Shown: in pieces, positions 1 through 18,798 of the stretch
Numbering within the stretch: position 1 is the stretch's first letter
Layout of the letters: each line of letters begins with the position of its first letter
From: a virus
DNA: 23,797 nucleotides
Direction: 5' to 3' (one strand)
IMG/VR virus record: IMGVR_UViG_3300008218_000055
Span: 1-23,797 of that record
Position numbers and translations under genes: made by a program
The notes under the pieces: generated by a model
Told to the model about the DNA's origin: nothing
What the model saw: the letters and a program-made list of their open reading frames with translations, nothing else
The model's database searches: none

Positions 1-936
1 ACAATATTAGAATCTTTATATAGACAAAATATAGCAAAAAAAATAGCTGTTATTTCTACTGAACTATATAATAATACACGTGAGAGTGGCTTTAATGATA
101 TACAAAATTTAATTGATGAATCAAAAGGTGTCAGTAAGGAAGAGTATGAAAATGTCACTAAAGATATATCTGAATTAATTGAGAATTTAAAAGATAATAC
201 AAAATGGAAATTTAATTTAACGGATTTACGCAATCGGGTAAACGGAATTGGCGAGGGTAATTTAATTATTATCTTTGCCAGACCTGAAAGTGGCAAGACT
301 GCATTCTGGGTTAATTTGGTCGCAGGTCAGGACGGTTTTGCCACACAAGGGGCTAAGGTGTGTGCTCTTATCAATGAAGAGCCGGCAATACGGACTCAAA
401 TGAGATTAATCAATGCACACACTGGCATGAAATTTAATGAAATAAAAGAAAATCCTGTAAAGGCAGGTGGTATGTGGGAAAAAATAAAAAATAATATTCA
501 AATACTAGATACAGTTGACTGGACATTGGAAAAAATAGATTCATATCTAGCCAAAGAGAAGCCAGATGTGTTGGTAATTGACCAACTGGACAAAGTACAT
601 ATTGATGGAAAATTTTTGAGAGGTGATGAAAAACTCAGAGCTATTTATACAGGCGCACGTGAAATAGCTAAGAGACGAGACTGCTCTTTAATTGGAATAT
701 CGCAAGCCTCTGCTGACGCATCTGGTAAATGGGATATGACTTTTGACATGATGGAAAACAGTAGAACGGGTAAAGCTGCGGAAGCAGATTTAATTATTGG
801 TATAGGGTATAAACCTAATTCGGAGTACAGCAATGAAAGCGACAGGAGTTTATCTATTAGTAAAAACAAAATAACTGGTTGGCATGGTAAAATAATGGTT
901 AAAATTGAACCGGGATTATCTAGGTACAGAGATTGA
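1..936 (+). CDS. DnaB-like replicative DNA helicase, C-terminal part (5' end outside window)
   Basis: The reading frame is open from base 1 to the TGA at 934-936, giving 311 visible residues of a longer protein. The visible part contains the RecA-like ATPase core of a DnaB/gp4-type hexameric helicase, which unwinds duplex DNA ahead of the phage polymerase. A Walker A motif ARPESGKTAF lies at visible residues 93-102 (Lys99), close to the DnaB consensus ARPxxGKTAF. A Walker B strand PDVLVIDQLD follows, with Asp194. Next come GISQAS (the DnaB Q-motif position) and a C-terminal stretch ISKNKITGWHGK ending near RYRD, as in phage helicases. About 90 residues before the core belong to the N-terminal or linker region; any primase domain would lie upstream and cannot be judged. 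The stop codon overlaps the next gene's TTG start by 4 bases (TTGA), linking helicase and polymerase in one operon. Confidence 0.88.
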   Translation, partial: TILESLYRQNIAKKIAVISTELYNNTRESGFNDIQNLIDESKGVSKEEYENVTKDISELIENLKDNTKWKFNLTDLRNRVNGIGEGNLIIIFARPESGKTAFWVNLVAGQDGFATQGAKVCALINEEPAIRTQMRLINAHTGMKFNEIKENPVKAGGMWEKIKNNIQILDTVDWTLEKIDSYLAKEKPDVLVIDQLDKVHIDGKFLRGDEKLRAIYTGAREIAKRRDCSLIGISQASADASGKWDMTFDMMENSRTGKAAEADLIIGIGYKPNSEYSNESDRSLSISKNKITGWHGKIMVKIEPGLSRYRD

Positions 937-2969
937 TTACAGTATTTGACATAGAAACATCTTTTCAAAAGGTTGACGGGACAAAAAGGCATGACCCATC
1001 TCCTAAGCATCCTAATAATTTTATTGTAAGTATAGGAATGAATGATAAATATTTCTTTTTTAAACACAATGAGTATCACGGTAAACCTTGTGTGGAAGAA
1101 GTCCAAAATATATTAGATAAAACTACATTGTTAGTAGGACATAATATAAAATTTGACTTATCTTGGATTTATGAAGCTGGATTCTCATATAAATCAAAAA
1201 TATATGATACTATGATTGGTGAATATGTCTTAGCAAGAGGTTTGAAAAAAAGTTTAAAACTAAAGGACTGCTGTTATAGACGAAACTTAACAGAAAAATC
1301 AACTACAGTTGAATCTTACATGAAAAATGGCACGTCCTTTGAAGAAATCCCAATACAAATTGTTGAGCATTATGGTAGACAGGATGTTAAATCGACAAAA
1401 GCTCTATTTTATTCTCAAATGTCAGATTTTAAATTGCCTCGCAACAAGGGATTATTAAAAACTGTTAAGATGATGTGTGAATTTTGTAACACTCTAACTC
1501 GCATGGAAAATAATGGAATCCATATAAATTTAAATCAATTAGATAAAGTAGAACAAGAATTTCAAAATGAATATAACAAGTTACGTATAGAAATAGATGA
1601 GGTAATACATAATAAAATGGGGGATACAAAGATAAACCCCGCTAGTCCAGAACAGTTATCGTGGCTCATTTATGGGGAAAGGGTTAGAGACAAAAAAGCT
1701 TGGGCAAATGAATTTAATATTGGTATTGATAAATATACAAAAAAACCTAAGCGAAGACCTAGAATGAGAAAACTTGAATTTAGAAAAGTATTAACAATGC
1801 ATTTGGTCCCCATTTATAAAACAAAAGCCTCACAATGTGGGGAATGTAGGGGAAGTGGTTATATTCAAAGATATAAAGTTAATGGAGACCCTTATAAAAA
1901 TATGTCAAAATGTATTGATTGTAAATCAGAAGGAGTTGTGTATATAAATACAGATAAAAAAGCAGGCTTTAATGCGAAAGCCCAGTTTGTTTCTGATGTT
2001 TCCGATGGTGGATTCAAAACAGATAGATTTACACTGGAGCGTGTATCAGCTAATAACGAGGAGTTAAAACAGTTTGTCAAGAAAATAATAAGATATAATG
2101 CTTTGGAAACATATCTCTCTACATTTGTTGACGGAATAAAAAAGTATACTAAAAAAAGTGGATTTTTGTATCCTAAATTTATGCAATGTGTTACAGCCAC
2201 AGGAAGGCTGTCAAGCCGAGACCCAAATTTTCAAAATCAACCTAGAGGTGGAACTTTCCCAATAAGAAAGGTTATTGATTCCAGATTTAAAAATGGAAAT
2301 GTAGCTGAGGTAGACTTTTCACAATTAGAATTTAGGATAGCAGTGTTTTTGGCACAAGATAAACAGGGCATGGAAGATATAAAGAATGGAATTGATGTTC
2401 ATAAATATACTGCGGATGTTATCGGGGTATCTCGTCAAGATGCAAAAGGACATACCTTTAAACCTCTTTATGGTGGTATGTCTGGAACCGACAATGAAAA
2501 AAAATATTATAATGCGTTTAAGGAAAAATATAAAGAAATAACTGAATGGCATGAAAAATTACAAGATGAGGCGATTACTTATAAAATTATAACATTACCT
2601 ACAGGTAGAGAATATGCCTTCCCTAAAGCAGAAAGGACACCTTGGGGTGGCTCAAGTTACGCCACACAAATAAAAAATTATCCAGTCCAAGGATTTGCTA
2701 CTGCTGACATTGTACCATTAGCTTGTATTAATATACAGAAACTATTTGATGACAAAAATCTTAAAAGTATCCTAATTAATACAGTACATGATTCTGTAAT
2801 AGCTGATGTTCACCCAGATGAAAAGGATATCGTAGTTGAGTTGATGCGTAAAGGCTCACTTCAAGTCATTGATTCTTTGAAAGAAATTTATGGTATAAAC
2901 TTTAATATACCACTTAATACAGAAATAAAAATGGGAAATAATTGGTTAGACCTAAAATTAATAGCTTGA
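933..2969 (+). CDS. polA: Family A DNA polymerase with 3'-5' exonuclease and DnaJ-like zinc insertion
   Basis: This is the replicative DNA polymerase, 678 aa. The N-terminal DEDD exonuclease has FDIET (Asp6, Glu8), GHNIKFD (Asp75) and YGRQD (Tyr147, Asp151), so proofreading should be active. Polymerase motif A is VDFSQLEFR (Asp461). Motif B is R501-x3-K505-x3-F509-x3-Y513-G. Motif C is VHDS at 618-621, with Ser where most family members have Glu. F509 aligns with E. coli Phe762. Between the two halves lies CGECRGSG (Cys302, Cys305) and, 22 residues on, CIDC (Cys327, Cys330). This is a DnaJ-like CxxCxGxG zinc module, recalled as a trait of HMO-2011-type marine phages. The start is TTG: it overlaps the helicase stop, and the first exonuclease motif begins only five residues later, so a start much further downstream is excluded. 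Confidence 0.95.
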   Translation: MITVFDIETSFQKVDGTKRHDPSPKHPNNFIVSIGMNDKYFFFKHNEYHGKPCVEEVQNILDKTTLLVGHNIKFDLSWIYEAGFSYKSKIYDTMIGEYVLARGLKKSLKLKDCCYRRNLTEKSTTVESYMKNGTSFEEIPIQIVEHYGRQDVKSTKALFYSQMSDFKLPRNKGLLKTVKMMCEFCNTLTRMENNGIHINLNQLDKVEQEFQNEYNKLRIEIDEVIHNKMGDTKINPASPEQLSWLIYGERVRDKKAWANEFNIGIDKYTKKPKRRPRMRKLEFRKVLTMHLVPIYKTKASQCGECRGSGYIQRYKVNGDPYKNMSKCIDCKSEGVVYINTDKKAGFNAKAQFVSDVSDGGFKTDRFTLERVSANNEELKQFVKKIIRYNALETYLSTFVDGIKKYTKKSGFLYPKFMQCVTATGRLSSRDPNFQNQPRGGTFPIRKVIDSRFKNGNVAEVDFSQLEFRIAVFLAQDKQGMEDIKNGIDVHKYTADVIGVSRQDAKGHTFKPLYGGMSGTDNEKKYYNAFKEKYKEITEWHEKLQDEAITYKIITLPTGREYAFPKAERTPWGGSSYATQIKNYPVQGFATADIVPLACINIQKLFDDKNLKSILINTVHDSVIADVHPDEKDIVVELMRKGSLQVIDSLKEIYGINFNIPLNTEIKMGNNWLDLKLIA

Positions 2970-2993: not shown

Positions 2994-3027
2994 CTTGAAT
3001 ATAACAATTAACTATGGAGTAAAACTT

Positions 3028-3921
3028 ATGGTAAATGATTTAGTAAGCTTCAAAACCATGTCTAAGGACGATATTATGCGCCTTACTGGTCAAGAAGATG
3101 ATGCCGGAGGGTCAGGCTCAGTCCTGATACCAAGACTGGCAATAAATAGAGCCGGAGAAGATGATGACGGAAATAAATTGGAATCTGGAACATACACAAT
3201 TTATGACCCCGAATCTGAAAAGAAGGTTTATAGTAAGAAGGGAGAAGTTGTCAAACTAAGACCTTTTATTAGAGCCTATCAATATATGGACTATAACCAA
3301 AAAGAAAATAAATATACTAATAAAACAATTATTTTCAAATCTTGGAAAGATGAAGCATTGGATTCTAACGGTGGAGTTAAATGTGGAAAGATTCCTTTTA
3401 AAGAACTAAATAGTGTTTCTAAAGAAGAGGCATTGAGACAAAAAGATATTAAATGCTATACTTTATTGTATGGATTATTAAATATGAATGCCGTTACGGG
3501 AGAGGGTGAATCTACTGTTCTAAAAGATTTACCAGTTTTATGGCGAGTTACAGGAACAAATTTTAGACCTGTTAATGAAGTTGTAAAAAGTATAAAAAAC
3601 CGTAATAAACTAATTCAAAACGTCAATCTTCTTTTAGGTACTAAAAGAAAAAAGACTGGTAATAATGTTTATTATATATCTGACATTGGTATAGACGATG
3701 CAGAGGTAGAATTTACCAAAGATAACTTTGAGACAATGCAAATGTTTAGTCAAATCATAAAAGATGAAAATATTGAAGTCATTGAATCTTGGAAATCAGC
3801 TCAAGGTAATTCTGAGGGTGGTGAAAACCCAGAAACAATTTCGGGTACTTCTGAAGTAGTTGAAGCTGTTGATACGGCCCCTAAAACTGAGGAAACTCCC
3901 GAACAAGTTTTGGCAACTTAA
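3028..3921 (+). CDS. Probable single-stranded DNA-binding / replication accessory protein
   Basis: The predicted product is 297 aa. I do not recognise it by a signature motif. The call rests on position directly after polA, on a folded N-terminal and central part rich in beta-type segments, and on an acidic unstructured tail (about the last 40 residues, rich in Glu, Thr, Asp and Gly). Such tails are typical of phage SSBs such as T7 gp2.5 and T4 gp32, where they contact replication partners. I chose ATG 3028 because it has GGAG at 3015-3018, nine bases upstream. The in-frame TTG at 2995 lies beside the -10 box of the perfect promoter, so it would precede the transcript start. Its own promoter fits a protein needed in large amounts. 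The stop shares one base with the next ATG (TAATG). Alternatively it is a recombination mediator. Confidence 0.55.
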   Translation: MVNDLVSFKTMSKDDIMRLTGQEDDAGGSGSVLIPRLAINRAGEDDDGNKLESGTYTIYDPESEKKVYSKKGEVVKLRPFIRAYQYMDYNQKENKYTNKTIIFKSWKDEALDSNGGVKCGKIPFKELNSVSKEEALRQKDIKCYTLLYGLLNMNAVTGEGESTVLKDLPVLWRVTGTNFRPVNEVVKSIKNRNKLIQNVNLLLGTKRKKTGNNVYYISDIGIDDAEVEFTKDNFETMQMFSQIIKDENIEVIESWKSAQGNSEGGENPETISGTSEVVEAVDTAPKTEETPEQVLAT

Positions 3922-5426: not shown

Positions 5427-6089
5427 ATGGATTATAAAGATTATAAACTAAGAGGAAAAGTTCATATGCCATTTAGTCCTATGATAATGGAATTTGCAAT
5501 ACCCAAACCGTACATAGATATGTTAAACATATATGCAGATAAAATATCCAAGAGTGATAAAAAATCTAAGCAACTGGATTGGTCAGATAATTTGGTTGGA
5601 AATGTCAAGCAGGAGCATAAAATTGAACAACATATTTGGCAAACAAAGCCTCACGAAAACTTACCAAGCCTTTTTAATTGGATAGGAATTTGTGCTAACA
5701 CTTATATCAAAACAAAATTAAATGACGGGGATAAACTTGATAGAGAAAAATCTAAAAAGGGAATTAAGAAGGTATTATTACATAACAGTTGGATTGTTAA
5801 CTCTATAGCAGGAGATTTTAATCCTCCGCATATGCATTTTGGAATGATGTCTGCGGCAGGGTGGCTTAAAATGCCAGAGTCTATAGAGAATAATACAGAG
5901 CGTGAACAGGCAGGATGGATAGAATTTCTACATGGAACTCCTCAATTATTTGTTGATTTTAAATATCCTGTTAAACCACACGTAGGACAAATATTTTTAT
6001 TTCCAGCATGGTTAATGCATGAAGTATTTCCTTTTAGGGGAAAGGGTTTACGAAGAACAATATCATTTAATCTAAGTGTAGAATTTTAA
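5427..6089 (+). CDS. Putative 2-oxoglutarate/Fe(II)-dependent oxygenase
   Basis: The product is 220 aa. The C-terminal half follows the layout of the 2OG-FeII_Oxy_5-like group. PPHMHFG (His135, His137) is followed by SAAGWLKMPE, corresponding to the SGxYYLxxP strand. Then come a GWIEFLHGTP segment, VGQIFLFPAWLMHEVFPF with His198 as the distal iron ligand, and GLRRTISFN with Arg210 placed to bind the 2-oxoglutarate carboxylate. The usual second ligand (Asp or Glu two residues after the first His) appears here as His or is shifted, so activity should be tested rather than assumed. Such oxygenases are frequent in marine phages, but their substrates are mostly unknown; nucleic acid bases or proteins are candidates. 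It sits in the replication operon three bases after the previous gene and one base before the next. Confidence 0.7.
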   Translation: MDYKDYKLRGKVHMPFSPMIMEFAIPKPYIDMLNIYADKISKSDKKSKQLDWSDNLVGNVKQEHKIEQHIWQTKPHENLPSLFNWIGICANTYIKTKLNDGDKLDREKSKKGIKKVLLHNSWIVNSIAGDFNPPHMHFGMMSAAGWLKMPESIENNTEREQAGWIEFLHGTPQLFVDFKYPVKPHVGQIFLFPAWLMHEVFPFRGKGLRRTISFNLSVEF

Positions 6090-8878: not shown

Positions 8879-9319
8879 TTAGTTAGCTAATGGATTACTA
8901 GACTTTGCTTTAATTTCGTCAATAAGAACATCTTGTAATTGATTTTCTTTTGCAACAATTGCAACTTTCTGTCCTAAGTCTGCAACCGAAGCTTCTAATT
9001 GTTTAATGGAATCATTAATAGGTTTAAGATTAACTTTCCTATTTTTTAATTCTGTTATGTCTTCTTTAATAGGTACTAAATCAACTGTTACAATTTTACC
9101 ATCTACAGTTTCAATTCTATCTATTAAGTCAACTTCAAGACTTGCAATTTTATCATTGACTGGCCCTAAATCAACTGTTTGATTTATTACCGGTTTTCTT
9201 TTATCAAGCTCTATAAGTTTTGCTTGGATTTTACCCCATTGTACAAAGCCTGCGCCAATGGCCCCGACAACACCTATTAAGGCTGCAATAGAACTGAGCT
9301 TTGTAACTAAATTATTCAT
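8879..9319 (-). CDS. Membrane-anchored coiled-coil protein with three internal repeats
   Basis: The product is 146 aa. A short N-terminus MNNLVTKLSS leads into one membrane helix (about residues 8-27, IAALIGVVGAIGAGFVQW). A long charged, probably coiled-coil stalk follows. Three related blocks are VDLGPVNDKIASLE (49-62), VDLVPIKEDITELK (79-92) and VNLKPINDSIKQLE (96-109). I chose ATG 9319 because GGAGG lies nine bases upstream. The in-frame ATG at 9340 would add only seven residues, would place that ribosome-binding site inside the gene and would deepen the overlap with the exported acidic protein. With this start it overlaps the previous stop by eight bases. An inner-membrane protein with a stalk would suit a spanin- or holin-accessory-like role, but this is inference from context. 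Confidence 0.7.
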   Translation of the reverse strand: MNNLVTKLSSIAALIGVVGAIGAGFVQWGKIQAKLIELDKRKPVINQTVDLGPVNDKIASLEVDLIDRIETVDGKIVTVDLVPIKEDITELKNRKVNLKPINDSIKQLEASVADLGQKVAIVAKENQLQDVLIDEIKAKSSNPLAN

Positions 9320-11231
9320 TTCGTAATGCCTCCAATTCAATTATTAATTTTTGTTTTTTTCTAGTTATTTCTTCTAGTTTTTTTCTATGAACCTCTACAG
9401 GGTCATTTTCTATATAACTTGCAAGGGTTATTTTTGTATAAATATCTTTGCTATAAGCGCTTAAATCTAGTTGATTATATAATCCTAGATTTACATCCTC
9501 ATATATTTTTTTAGGTTTATAAAAACTAGTTTTAAGATATGCATTTAATGTATTATTATTTTTAAAAAATATATCTTCTTTTGTAAAATTTTGAGTATTT
9601 TTCTTTGCTATTAAAGCTATGTGTTTAGCAACCTTTTTTAAATTCTTCTTTAATTCAGATTCCAATTTTTCAACACTTGTAGTAACTCCTTTCTCTTTAA
9701 TGACGTTTTCTTCCGATTGTACAATTTCTTGCTTTTCACTATCCTCTGACTGTACTTCGGTGTCCTCAGAATCTTCGCTACTGGGTTCATCCTGTTCGGT
9801 TGTGTCTTCGGTTTCATTTTCTGCCACTTCTTTAGTTTCTTCTATTTTTTCTTCAGGTTCCTCTATTGCTTCTTCATTCTCAACAACCTCTGATGGAGCC
9901 TCTTCAATCATTGGTTCTTCTTGTATAACTTCTTCAACAAACTCTTCTTCTATAATTTCTTCAGCAAATTCTTCTTCTACAATTTCTTCAAAAAATTCTT
10001 CTTGTGTTATTCCCTCTTCTTCTAGAAATTGCTCAAATTCTTCTGCCATTCCAGTTTCTTCTATAAAGTCTGTAAATGTTTCTTCAAATTCTTCTTCAAA
10101 CATTTCTTCAAAAAATTCAGGCTCTTCAAATTCTTCTTCAAAGGCAGTATCTTCCATTGCAACTTCTTCAAATTCTTCAAACTCAAAGTTATCAAAAAAG
10201 GTTTGCTCTTCAAATTCTTCAAACTCAAACTCTTCTATAGAAACGTCTTCAAAATCATCAAAAGTAAACTCTTCCTCAAAATAATAATCATCTTCCCAAG
10301 TAAACTCTTCTTCTAAACCAAAGTCTTCTTCAAAGGAATATTCTTCCTCGAATCCAAATTCCTCTTCATAAACCCATTCATCATCCCACGATGATGTAAA
10401 GTCTTCTTCATAAAACCACTCTTCTTCCTGAAAATCACTCAAACTTTCATCAAGAGTATCATCTATTGAATAAAGAGATTCTTCTGTAGTATTATCTAAT
10501 GGGTCATAAGTTGTGCCATCATACGTCATGGTCATTTTAGCACCCAAAAGATTTGGCCCACCTAAGCTTGCAGTTGAGCCATTACCATATCTGCTATCTG
10601 TTCCACTCCATGACCAATCAACTTTATTTGCACCAGTGCTGTTATATATTATAGTATCATTATACTGGCCACATCCCGTAGCTCTTCCATCACTTCCTGA
10701 ATAAGTTGGATATCCACTACAATTACCCTGAAAGCCAACAAGATTAGTTCTTGTTTGTGTTACAGTTGATAATGTGGTTCCATCAGAATTTTCAAGTTCT
10801 ACTGTAATACTATGTGAATCATCACTTCCATACTTTGATTCACAATTACCAGATGAACTTTCACAATTAGCTATATCAATATAATTGTTAAGGGTAATCC
10901 CTTGGTCAAGCATTGATTGTGTTCTGCTTTCATTAGTAAGTGAAATATCATCTACAGATATAGTTGCTGTTCCTGTTACCTCAAAGTCTCCACCTACATC
11001 GTATTTATATCCACAATTAGCCTGTGAAGAATCGCAAGTGACAGTAAAACCATTAAATGTATCACCACTGGAAACATACCCAGAACCACCATCATTAATC
11101 ATCTCAGTAGAACTGGAACCCCAATCTACTCCATCTCCGGCATTAGGTAATAAATTTCCTGTTGTTAAATTTTCTGAATAAACATTTGTAGTCCAAGAAA
11201 TTAGTAAAATACTTAATAATGTTCGTATCAT
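9312..11231 (-). CDS. Exported protein with Cys-rich beta domain and giant Glu/Phe-rich acidic region
   Basis: The product is 639 aa with three visible parts. Residues 1-19 (MIRTLLSILLISWTTNVYS) look like a Sec signal peptide. Residues 20-245 form a Gly/Ser/Thr/Asn-rich, beta-type domain with six cysteines (66, 73, 123, 130, 171, 187), compatible with three disulfides in the periplasm. Residues about 249-509 are extraordinarily acidic: up to 435 they are dominated by Glu/Asp with regularly spaced Phe, Tyr and Trp (EEEF, FEEF), and afterwards by Glu, Ser, Thr and Val. The C-terminal 125 residues turn basic and then coiled-coil-like. It follows the other Sec-exported protein with an ATGA overlap. 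I recognise no enzyme. Metal or cation binding, or interaction with the host envelope or peptidoglycan during lysis or adsorption, are guesses. Confidence 0.75.
   Translation of the reverse strand: MIRTLLSILLISWTTNVYSENLTTGNLLPNAGDGVDWGSSSTEMINDGGSGYVSSGDTFNGFTVTCDSSQANCGYKYDVGGDFEVTGTATISVDDISLTNESRTQSMLDQGITLNNYIDIANCESSSGNCESKYGSDDSHSITVELENSDGTTLSTVTQTRTNLVGFQGNCSGYPTYSGSDGRATGCGQYNDTIIYNSTGANKVDWSWSGTDSRYGNGSTASLGGPNLLGAKMTMTYDGTTYDPLDNTTEESLYSIDDTLDESLSDFQEEEWFYEEDFTSSWDDEWVYEEEFGFEEEYSFEEDFGLEEEFTWEDDYYFEEEFTFDDFEDVSIEEFEFEEFEEQTFFDNFEFEEFEEVAMEDTAFEEEFEEPEFFEEMFEEEFEETFTDFIEETGMAEEFEQFLEEEGITQEEFFEEIVEEEFAEEIIEEEFVEEVIQEEPMIEEAPSEVVENEEAIEEPEEKIEETKEVAENETEDTTEQDEPSSEDSEDTEVQSEDSEKQEIVQSEENVIKEKGVTTSVEKLESELKKNLKKVAKHIALIAKKNTQNFTKEDIFFKNNNTLNAYLKTSFYKPKKIYEDVNLGLYNQLDLSAYSKDIYTKITLASYIENDPVEVHRKKLEEITRKKQKLIIELEALRNE
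9927..10433 (-). repeat. Low-complexity Glu/Phe repeat tract within the exported acidic protein
   Basis: Codons 267-435 consist largely of GAA/GAG interspersed with TTT/TAT/TGG. On the + strand this appears as TCTTCAAATTCTTC-type units recurring irregularly. It is a degenerate repeat suited to slippage and length change. The opposite strand is fortuitously open for over 600 bases with a Ser-rich translation. Confidence 0.7.
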
Positions 11232-18501: not shown

Positions 18502-18798
18502 TCAGCTTCCATTATGTGGACTAACCCAATAGCTTTTGCAATCACAGTTAGTACAATTACATTTCGTGCAGTCACCTTCACCACAATGACAATCTTTGTC
18601 GCATTTACAATTTTTACAAATCTTTTTTTGTTTTTCTCTCATCATATTTCCTGTAATATAAACTTCATTTTCATAAGTTGAATCTTCACTTCTTTCTCCA
18701 GAACAACAAGATTCAATTACTTGTTTACATAGTTCACATTGTATGTGACTTTGAATATATATTCCATTTATCCAATTAAAACATAAATGGCAAAACAT
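18502..18798 (-). CDS. Cysteine-rich protein: zinc-knuckle head and metallothionein-like tail
   Basis: The product is 98 aa with 16 cysteines. The head holds Cys3-x2-Cys6 and Cys21-x2-Cys24, a four-cysteine zinc site, then Cys31-Cys32. After a polar linker, residues 61-87 pack ten cysteines as C-x2-C-x-C-x3-C-x-C-x4-C-x2-C-x-C-x2-C-x-C. This is the CxC/CxxC clustering of metallothioneins, with few aromatic residues and Lys, Asp and Asn between. It would bind several Zn, Cd or Cu ions in the cytoplasm. It is coupled by TAATG to the 721-aa protein before it and lies two bases ahead of the giant protein, so it is part of the virion operon. Metal supply or protection, or a metal-loaded virion component, are possibilities. 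A disulfide-rich structural protein is the alternative. Confidence 0.75.
   Translation of the reverse strand: MFCHLCFNWINGIYIQSHIQCELCKQVIESCCSGERSEDSTYENEVYITGNMMREKQKKICKNCKCDKDCHCGEGDCTKCNCTNCDCKSYWVSPHNGS

Follow-up and report, generated by a model that had tools for sequence, protein, structure and literature searches.

A predicted DnaJ-like zinc hairpin in the thumb of an HMO-2011-type phage DNA polymerase

The replicative DNA polymerase of an HMO-2011-type marine phage carries an insertion of 117 residues that, judging from alignment and a structure model, takes the place of the thumb-tip loop that joins helices H1 and H2, inside the polymerase domain. The enzyme is encoded in the viral record IMGVR_UViG_3300008218_000055, a 23.8 kb fragment whose 23,797 nucleotides were analysed in full (hereafter the window), by an open reading frame (ORF) at positions 933-2969 of the plus strand (678 residues, TTG start). 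The insertion contains four cysteines that are invariant among relatives, resembles part of the cysteine-rich domain of DnaJ and has a net charge of +14. We propose that it forms a zinc-stapled, positively charged extension of the thumb that holds the product duplex firmly and makes the enzyme more processive, a reading to which we give an even chance.

The fusion of a DnaJ module to this polymerase is already known. It was described in 2019 (PMC6918029), 2021 (PMC8528129) and 2022 (PMC9038755), and PF00684 is noted in the GenBank record of HMO-2011 (GU557055); the preliminary description of this DNA, which had attributed the fusion to the HMO-2011 group, was thus right. The available portions of these three papers contain neither a placement in the thumb nor a charge nor a functional test of the module. 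In a wider literature search, covering mostly journals outside subscription, the matches listed included no biochemical study of an HMO-type polymerase and, on polymerase thumb insertions or zinc modules in the thumb, none for this enzyme. The precise placement at the thumb tip and the charge are the refinement made here.

Position of the insertion in the thumb

The product of the 933-2969 gene is a family A DNA polymerase whose N-terminal domain is a 3'-5' exonuclease, a combination expected of the HMO-2011 type. It matches phrog_17 (E 1.2e-95), and the DNA polymerase of Pelagibacter phage HTVC033P is 58% identical to it over the full length. When 50,697 phage records were searched with the polymerase by tblastn, 2908 matched and the best 60 were considered. 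The first 12 of these (11 phages of the HMO-2011 group, HTVC033P being the closest) show 36.7-58.4% identity over 99-100% of the query, and the other 48 show 21.9-31.8%. Seven of the 11 isolates were aligned (CRP-1, CRP-2, CRP-235 and CRP-603 were left out), and all seven have the same insertion and the same four cysteines. Pooled with the window and with the best 80 loci from each of two viral-contig scans, they yielded 167 translations, 153 of them distinct. This set, to which the counts below refer, includes near copies of the window and some partial sequences, and leaves out six non-HMO phage controls and the window's own locus, L094.

The module had been placed between the exonuclease and polymerase domains in the preliminary description. 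It does follow the exonuclease, but it lies within the polymerase domain rather than outside it, since the alignment with Klenow breaks off at residue 248, to restart at 382, and helices H1 and H2 of an AlphaFold2 model bracket the insertion (Table 1). This model of the whole enzyme, a calculation proposed in the same description, was built from an alignment of 61 of 62 representatives and has a mean predicted local distance difference test score (pLDDT) of 91.2, with 85-94 in the blocks of the insertion. It superimposes on the large fragment of Bacillus Pol I (4f3o) with a Z score of 36.2 and a root-mean-square deviation (rmsd) of 2.8 over 526 residues; the next long helix after H2 spans residues 376-405. 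A search of BFVD with the whole enzyme returned family A polymerases at 24% identity or less among the best 50 of 831 matches, and was uninformative on the module.

Comparison with T7 polymerase clarifies the location. According to the available part of PMC9198812, H1 and H2 of the T7 enzyme comprise residues 339-348 and 365-372. The linker between them is 16 residues long, and the H1 segment of the window enzyme, NPASPEQLSWLIY, is the counterpart of T7 NPSSRDHIQ. The thioredoxin-binding domain of T7 is likewise a long thumb insertion of a family A phage polymerase; however, it lies between helices H and H1, ahead of NPSSRDHIQ (from residue 335), whereas the HMO-type insertion follows H1. Taken as residues 258-333, the T7 domain has a net charge of +6, and it contains no CxxC pair. 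An insertion at the T7 site, which we had first assumed, was dropped because of this difference in order. T7 and SIO1 are misaligned here in the polymerase alignment, and the NPSS/FNLGS anchors were used instead.

Other phages also fill the H1-H2 loop. Insertions of 88-133 residues, devoid of the cysteine quartet and with charges of -3 to +6, are found there in the Autographiviridae JSF7, H4/4, NMeng1, Lullwater, Paso, HenuGS and SoKa and in the unclassified Vibrio phage 526E57-1; in VpV262 and a second member of the Zobellviridae the loop is no more than a short basic linker. By eye, the JSF7-type insertions resemble the HMO-type one in their C-terminal part, but homology is not claimed because a profile comparison confined to the insertions gave a probability of 0.9% (E 0.06, 13 columns); taken by arm, the values were 1.7% over 2 columns for the N-terminal arm and 0.3% over 5 columns for the C-terminal one. 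Scans of the viral contigs with the H4/4 and VpV262 polymerases returned one and five loci, respectively. In ICP2_2013_A_Haiti (L089) and in Alcaligenes phage QDWS535 (L185), the match to a family A polymerase extends over two annotated genes that lie side by side. A tree of 26 sequences (497 columns, insertion excluded) was drawn with T7 as the root; since its deep nodes have support of 32-41, we claim neither monophyly nor a sister group for the HMO type.

Bacterial and archaeal contigs yielded 64 loci. Eight of them, including two that are twins of two others, are 39.6-57.3% identical to the query and show a CxxC...CxxC pattern when read in the polymerase frame; one more (L196, 50%) starts past the module region, and 55, at 22-32%, lack the pattern. 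The eight, mostly metagenome-assembled genome (MAG) records, are probably phage contigs. They (L188-L195) are filed in MAGs labelled Euryarchaeota, Flavobacteriales, Neomarinimicrobiota, Maricaulis and Rhodobiaceae and under an uncultured alphaproteobacterium (AG-899-M17), and could be either stray phage contigs or hints of hosts.

A cysteine hairpin of the DnaJ kind

Translation of 933-2969 places Cys302, Cys305, Cys327 and Cys330 at exactly the positions first assigned to them, 1836-1922, with CIDC (residues 327-330) at 1911-1922. The pattern is hardly one of chance: among 20,000 shuffles of the polymerase, two CxxC pairs 10-40 residues apart arose in 0.07% and any CxxCxGxG in 0.06%. The four cysteines, Gly307 and Gly334 are invariant in all 153 distinct HMO-type translations; Gly309 is kept, and the gap between Cys305 and Cys327 is 21 residues, in 152 each. 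As initially described, the first knuckle is a full CxxCxGxG and the second is reduced: it reads CIDCKSEG, that is CxxCxSxG, and retains its last glycine. Position 332, where the window has serine, is glycine in 127 of the 153 and Ser, Ala, Thr or Lys in the other 26. The second knuckle likewise deviates in CRP-345 (CTECDARG) and CRP-207 (CKDCDTRG). Two CXXCXGXG motifs are reported for seven new phages and 207 metagenomic genomes in the available part of PMC9038755; taken strictly, that wording fits knuckle 1 of the window and not knuckle 2. In view of the 26 deviating translations and the two CRP phages, the strict wording does not delimit the HMO group. The looser description applies to the window enzyme: its exonuclease domain is followed by part of a DnaJ central domain, in which there are two CxxC knuckles. 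A further pair, CEFC (residues 182-185), lacks conservation, its two positions being Cys in 26/153 and 16/153.

The DnaJ-like assignment made in the preliminary description draws support from several sides. PF00684 (DnaJ_CXXCXGXG) matches a stretch of 54 residues with E 7.3e-6 and 26.6 bits, a stretch of 52 residues with 26.3 bits and the whole protein with E 0.0012 and 19.5 bits; the anticipated match is thus there, but it falls short of the gathering score of the family (32.7 bits). All 32 diverse modules scanned match PF00684. When these modules (32 of 49) were made into a profile, the best PDB sequence was E. coli DnaJ (1exk, E 1.6e-4), followed by three other DnaJ proteins, and in 1exk the alignment is best over repeats II and III, the middle pair. 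In DnaJ, repeat I pairs with IV and II with III in holding zinc, so that the II-III pair makes one zinc site. DnaJ has four CXXCXGXG repeats with two zinc sites; the polymerase module has two knuckles, alike to the middle pair in sequence and spacing, and would be expected to hold one zinc, in keeping with the single probable site first suggested. The hairpin, which makes up the distal part of the insertion, is at the level of sequence a relative of two repeats, II and III, in the cysteine-rich domain of DnaJ.

Structure comparison points in the same direction, faintly. A model of the insertion alone (alignment of 58 of 62 representatives, mean pLDDT 87.2) had no Foldseek match at E <= 0.001, and the top three rows were DnaJA2 (E 0.13-0.14). 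With VIA-align, all matches were weak: DnaJA2 at Z 2.8, DnaJ at Z 2.2 and anti-TRAP at Z 2.0. Foldseek also listed, non-significantly, BSD2 (E 0.85) and UvrA (35 columns, rmsd 1.6, E 1.7); that the latter match falls on the zinc hairpin of UvrA is a guess. BSD2, UvrA and anti-TRAP are cellular proteins with functions other than that of a polymerase. We set aside a weak match of the polymerase to GRXCR1-2_C (E 0.0058) and, for some members, matches to small zinc families, anti-TRAP among them.

DNA grip and alternative roles

The charge of the insertion is a property of the group. Residues 249-362 have a mean net charge of +14.5 (range +7 to +23, n=153), and whole HMO-type proteins one of +9.7 (n=147). 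Positions 254, 271, 273-275, 313, 315 and 326 are Lys or Arg in at least 92% of the sequences (n=153; 145 for 271-275), K254 being basic in 100% and W257 aromatic in 98%. Over 4000 sampled pairs, identity averages 49% in the insertion versus 66% in the palm.

From location, constraint on the cysteines, DnaJ likeness and charge, all of them computed, we infer zinc binding, contact with DNA and a gain in processivity. Most likely, a single zinc ion held by Cys302/305 and Cys327/330 would fix the hairpin, and the hairpin, once fixed, would lay the basic arm (residues 249-296) and the basic inter-knuckle loop (310-326) along the duplex backbone where the DNA emerges from the active site. With DNA held more tightly by the thumb, the phage enzyme would be processive without a separate clamp. 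Deletions at the Klenow thumb tip (about residues 590-613) are said to lower processivity. There are precedents in the available text of PMC7699545, where a thumb insertion of T7 polymerase binds a processivity factor, as does one in "HsDNAP", which we read as the human mitochondrial polymerase. In T7, moreover, the H1-6c-6d-H2 stretch (residues 346-355 and 360-373) crosslinks to nucleic acid (PMC9198812, available in part).

Several considerations weigh against a DNA grip. The rest of the window polymerase is positive too (+8), and the AlphaFold2 model is of the protein alone, without metal or DNA. The eight phage insertions described above carry little charge, so that length alone in the H1-H2 loop does not imply a basic grip. 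Basic surfaces can also bind acidic protein tails, and DnaJ, BSD2 and anti-TRAP, whose related hairpins appear in the match lists, are known as protein binders.

The most serious alternative, which we nevertheless regard as somewhat unlikely, is that the basic, zinc-stapled insertion is a docking platform: acidic C-terminal tails of the phage single-stranded DNA-binding protein (SSB) or of the helicase would bind to it and so link the polymerase with the fork. In T7, the thioredoxin-binding domain does bind the tail of the T7 SSB (PMC7699545, available in part), and in the window the helicase gene lies directly upstream of the polymerase gene. Helicase tails are not acidic, however (mean +1.05, n=114/153). 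The product of the downstream gene, 2995-3921, ends in 40 residues of net charge -8; the mean for its relatives is -4.65 (n=80/153, where the gene is readable), against a background of -0.55 for the last 40 residues of 814 mechanically called plus-strand ORFs of at least 150 residues. Yet this tail is only moderately acidic, reaching -6 or below in 22 of the 80 versus 8% of background ORFs, and its protein has no assigned function. We consider the tail suggestive of a docking partner, to a modest degree. The product itself, a candidate SSB or other replisome partner, had no match in a Pfam scan and a marginal one in PHROG, to a family of unknown function (E 0.094).

A second alternative, which strikes us as improbable, is that zinc merely stabilises the insertion, which would contact neither DNA nor a partner on its own account. 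Single-site zinc hairpins are commonly folding staples, and the eight other phage polymerases fill the same loop without a cysteine quartet; conservation, however, extends to positions other than cysteine (K254, W257, K271, K273-R275, R313 and K315). The example of T7, which employs host thioredoxin (PMC7699545 and PMC9198812, in their available parts), raises the thought that a host or phage thioredoxin or glutaredoxin clamps onto the insertion, perhaps through the cysteine pairs. This seems very improbable to us: the insertion sits in a different loop from the T7 domain, and the annotation of the first 22.5 kb of HTVC033P, where most genes are "hypothetical", lists no glutaredoxin. The part of DnaJ that drives DnaK is the J domain. 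That the module acts as a chaperone, by bringing in DnaK or by holding unfolded clients, is hardly credible, despite its likeness to the DnaJ cysteine-rich domain and the role of DnaJ in lambda replication mentioned in PMC9038755 (available in part), as it has two of the four repeats and a Pfam scan of the whole polymerase found no J domain.

Features, neighbouring genes and significance

Table 1. Features of the polymerase gene and its neighbours in the window
Feature	Coordinates	Strand	Basis
Family A DNA polymerase, HMO-2011 type, 678 residues	933..2969	+	PF00476 E 2.6e-50; PF01612 E 4.2e-8
Exonuclease domain, about residues 1-170	933..1442	+	PF01612 match 51-159; structure model
Thumb helix H, residues 200-229	1530..1619	+	structure model
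Thumb helix H1, residues 239-247	1647..1673	+	structure model; NPASPEQLSWLIY aligns with Klenow
Thumb-tip loop H1-H2 insertion, residues 248-364, 117 residues, net +14	1674..2024	+	alignments, structure model, charge
Basic N-terminal arm of insertion, residues 249-296, net +11	1677..1820	+	mean +9.8, n=145
DnaJ-like zinc hairpin (predicted), residues 297-343	1821..1961	+	Pfam, profile, insert model
Knuckle 1, CGECRGSG, residues 302-309	1836..1859	+	translation, alignment
Basic inter-knuckle loop, residues 310-326, conserved K/R at 313, 315, 322, 326	1860..1910	+	
Knuckle 2, CIDCKSEG, residues 327-334, first Gly lost	1911..1934	+	translation, alignment
Thumb helix H2, residues 365-371	2025..2045	+	structure model
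Palm and fingers, about residues 410-678	2160..2966	+	Pfam, structure model
DnaB-like replicative helicase, reading frame truncated at the left edge of the record	1..936	+	phrog_19 E 1.4e-28 for 316-933
Conserved gene downstream of polymerase, acidic C-terminal tail; candidate replisome partner	2995..3921	+	last 40 residues net -8

Three further genes of the window deserve mention. Near the replication genes, 5427-6089 (plus strand) encodes a putative 2OG-Fe(II) oxygenase (PF13759, E 1.8e-16). The 639-residue product of 9312-11231 (minus strand) has a long, acidic, repetitive stretch rich in Glu and Phe (EEFEEEF-like), preceded by an N-terminus that resembles a signal peptide by eye. The 98-residue product of 18502-18798 (minus strand) is very rich in cysteine, in CxxC and CxC clusters, which makes it a likely metal-binding protein; searches of Pfam and PHROG gave it no match at E 0.1.

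Phages of the HMO-2011 type are dominant and widely distributed in the sea (PMC9038755, available in part). Their polymerase gene serves as a marker, and the module is its most distinctive part. Placement at the thumb tip and charge turn an "unusual domain" into a testable mechanism, in terms of DNA affinity and processivity; if our proposal of a DNA grip is true, the module is a compact processivity element. It is tempting to go further and, tentatively, with more doubt than confidence, to picture the HMO-type family A polymerase as made processive by a built-in hairpin clamp, without thioredoxin or a sliding clamp. Such a clamp, if real, would be a solution independent of that of T7, situated across helix H1 from it in the sequence.
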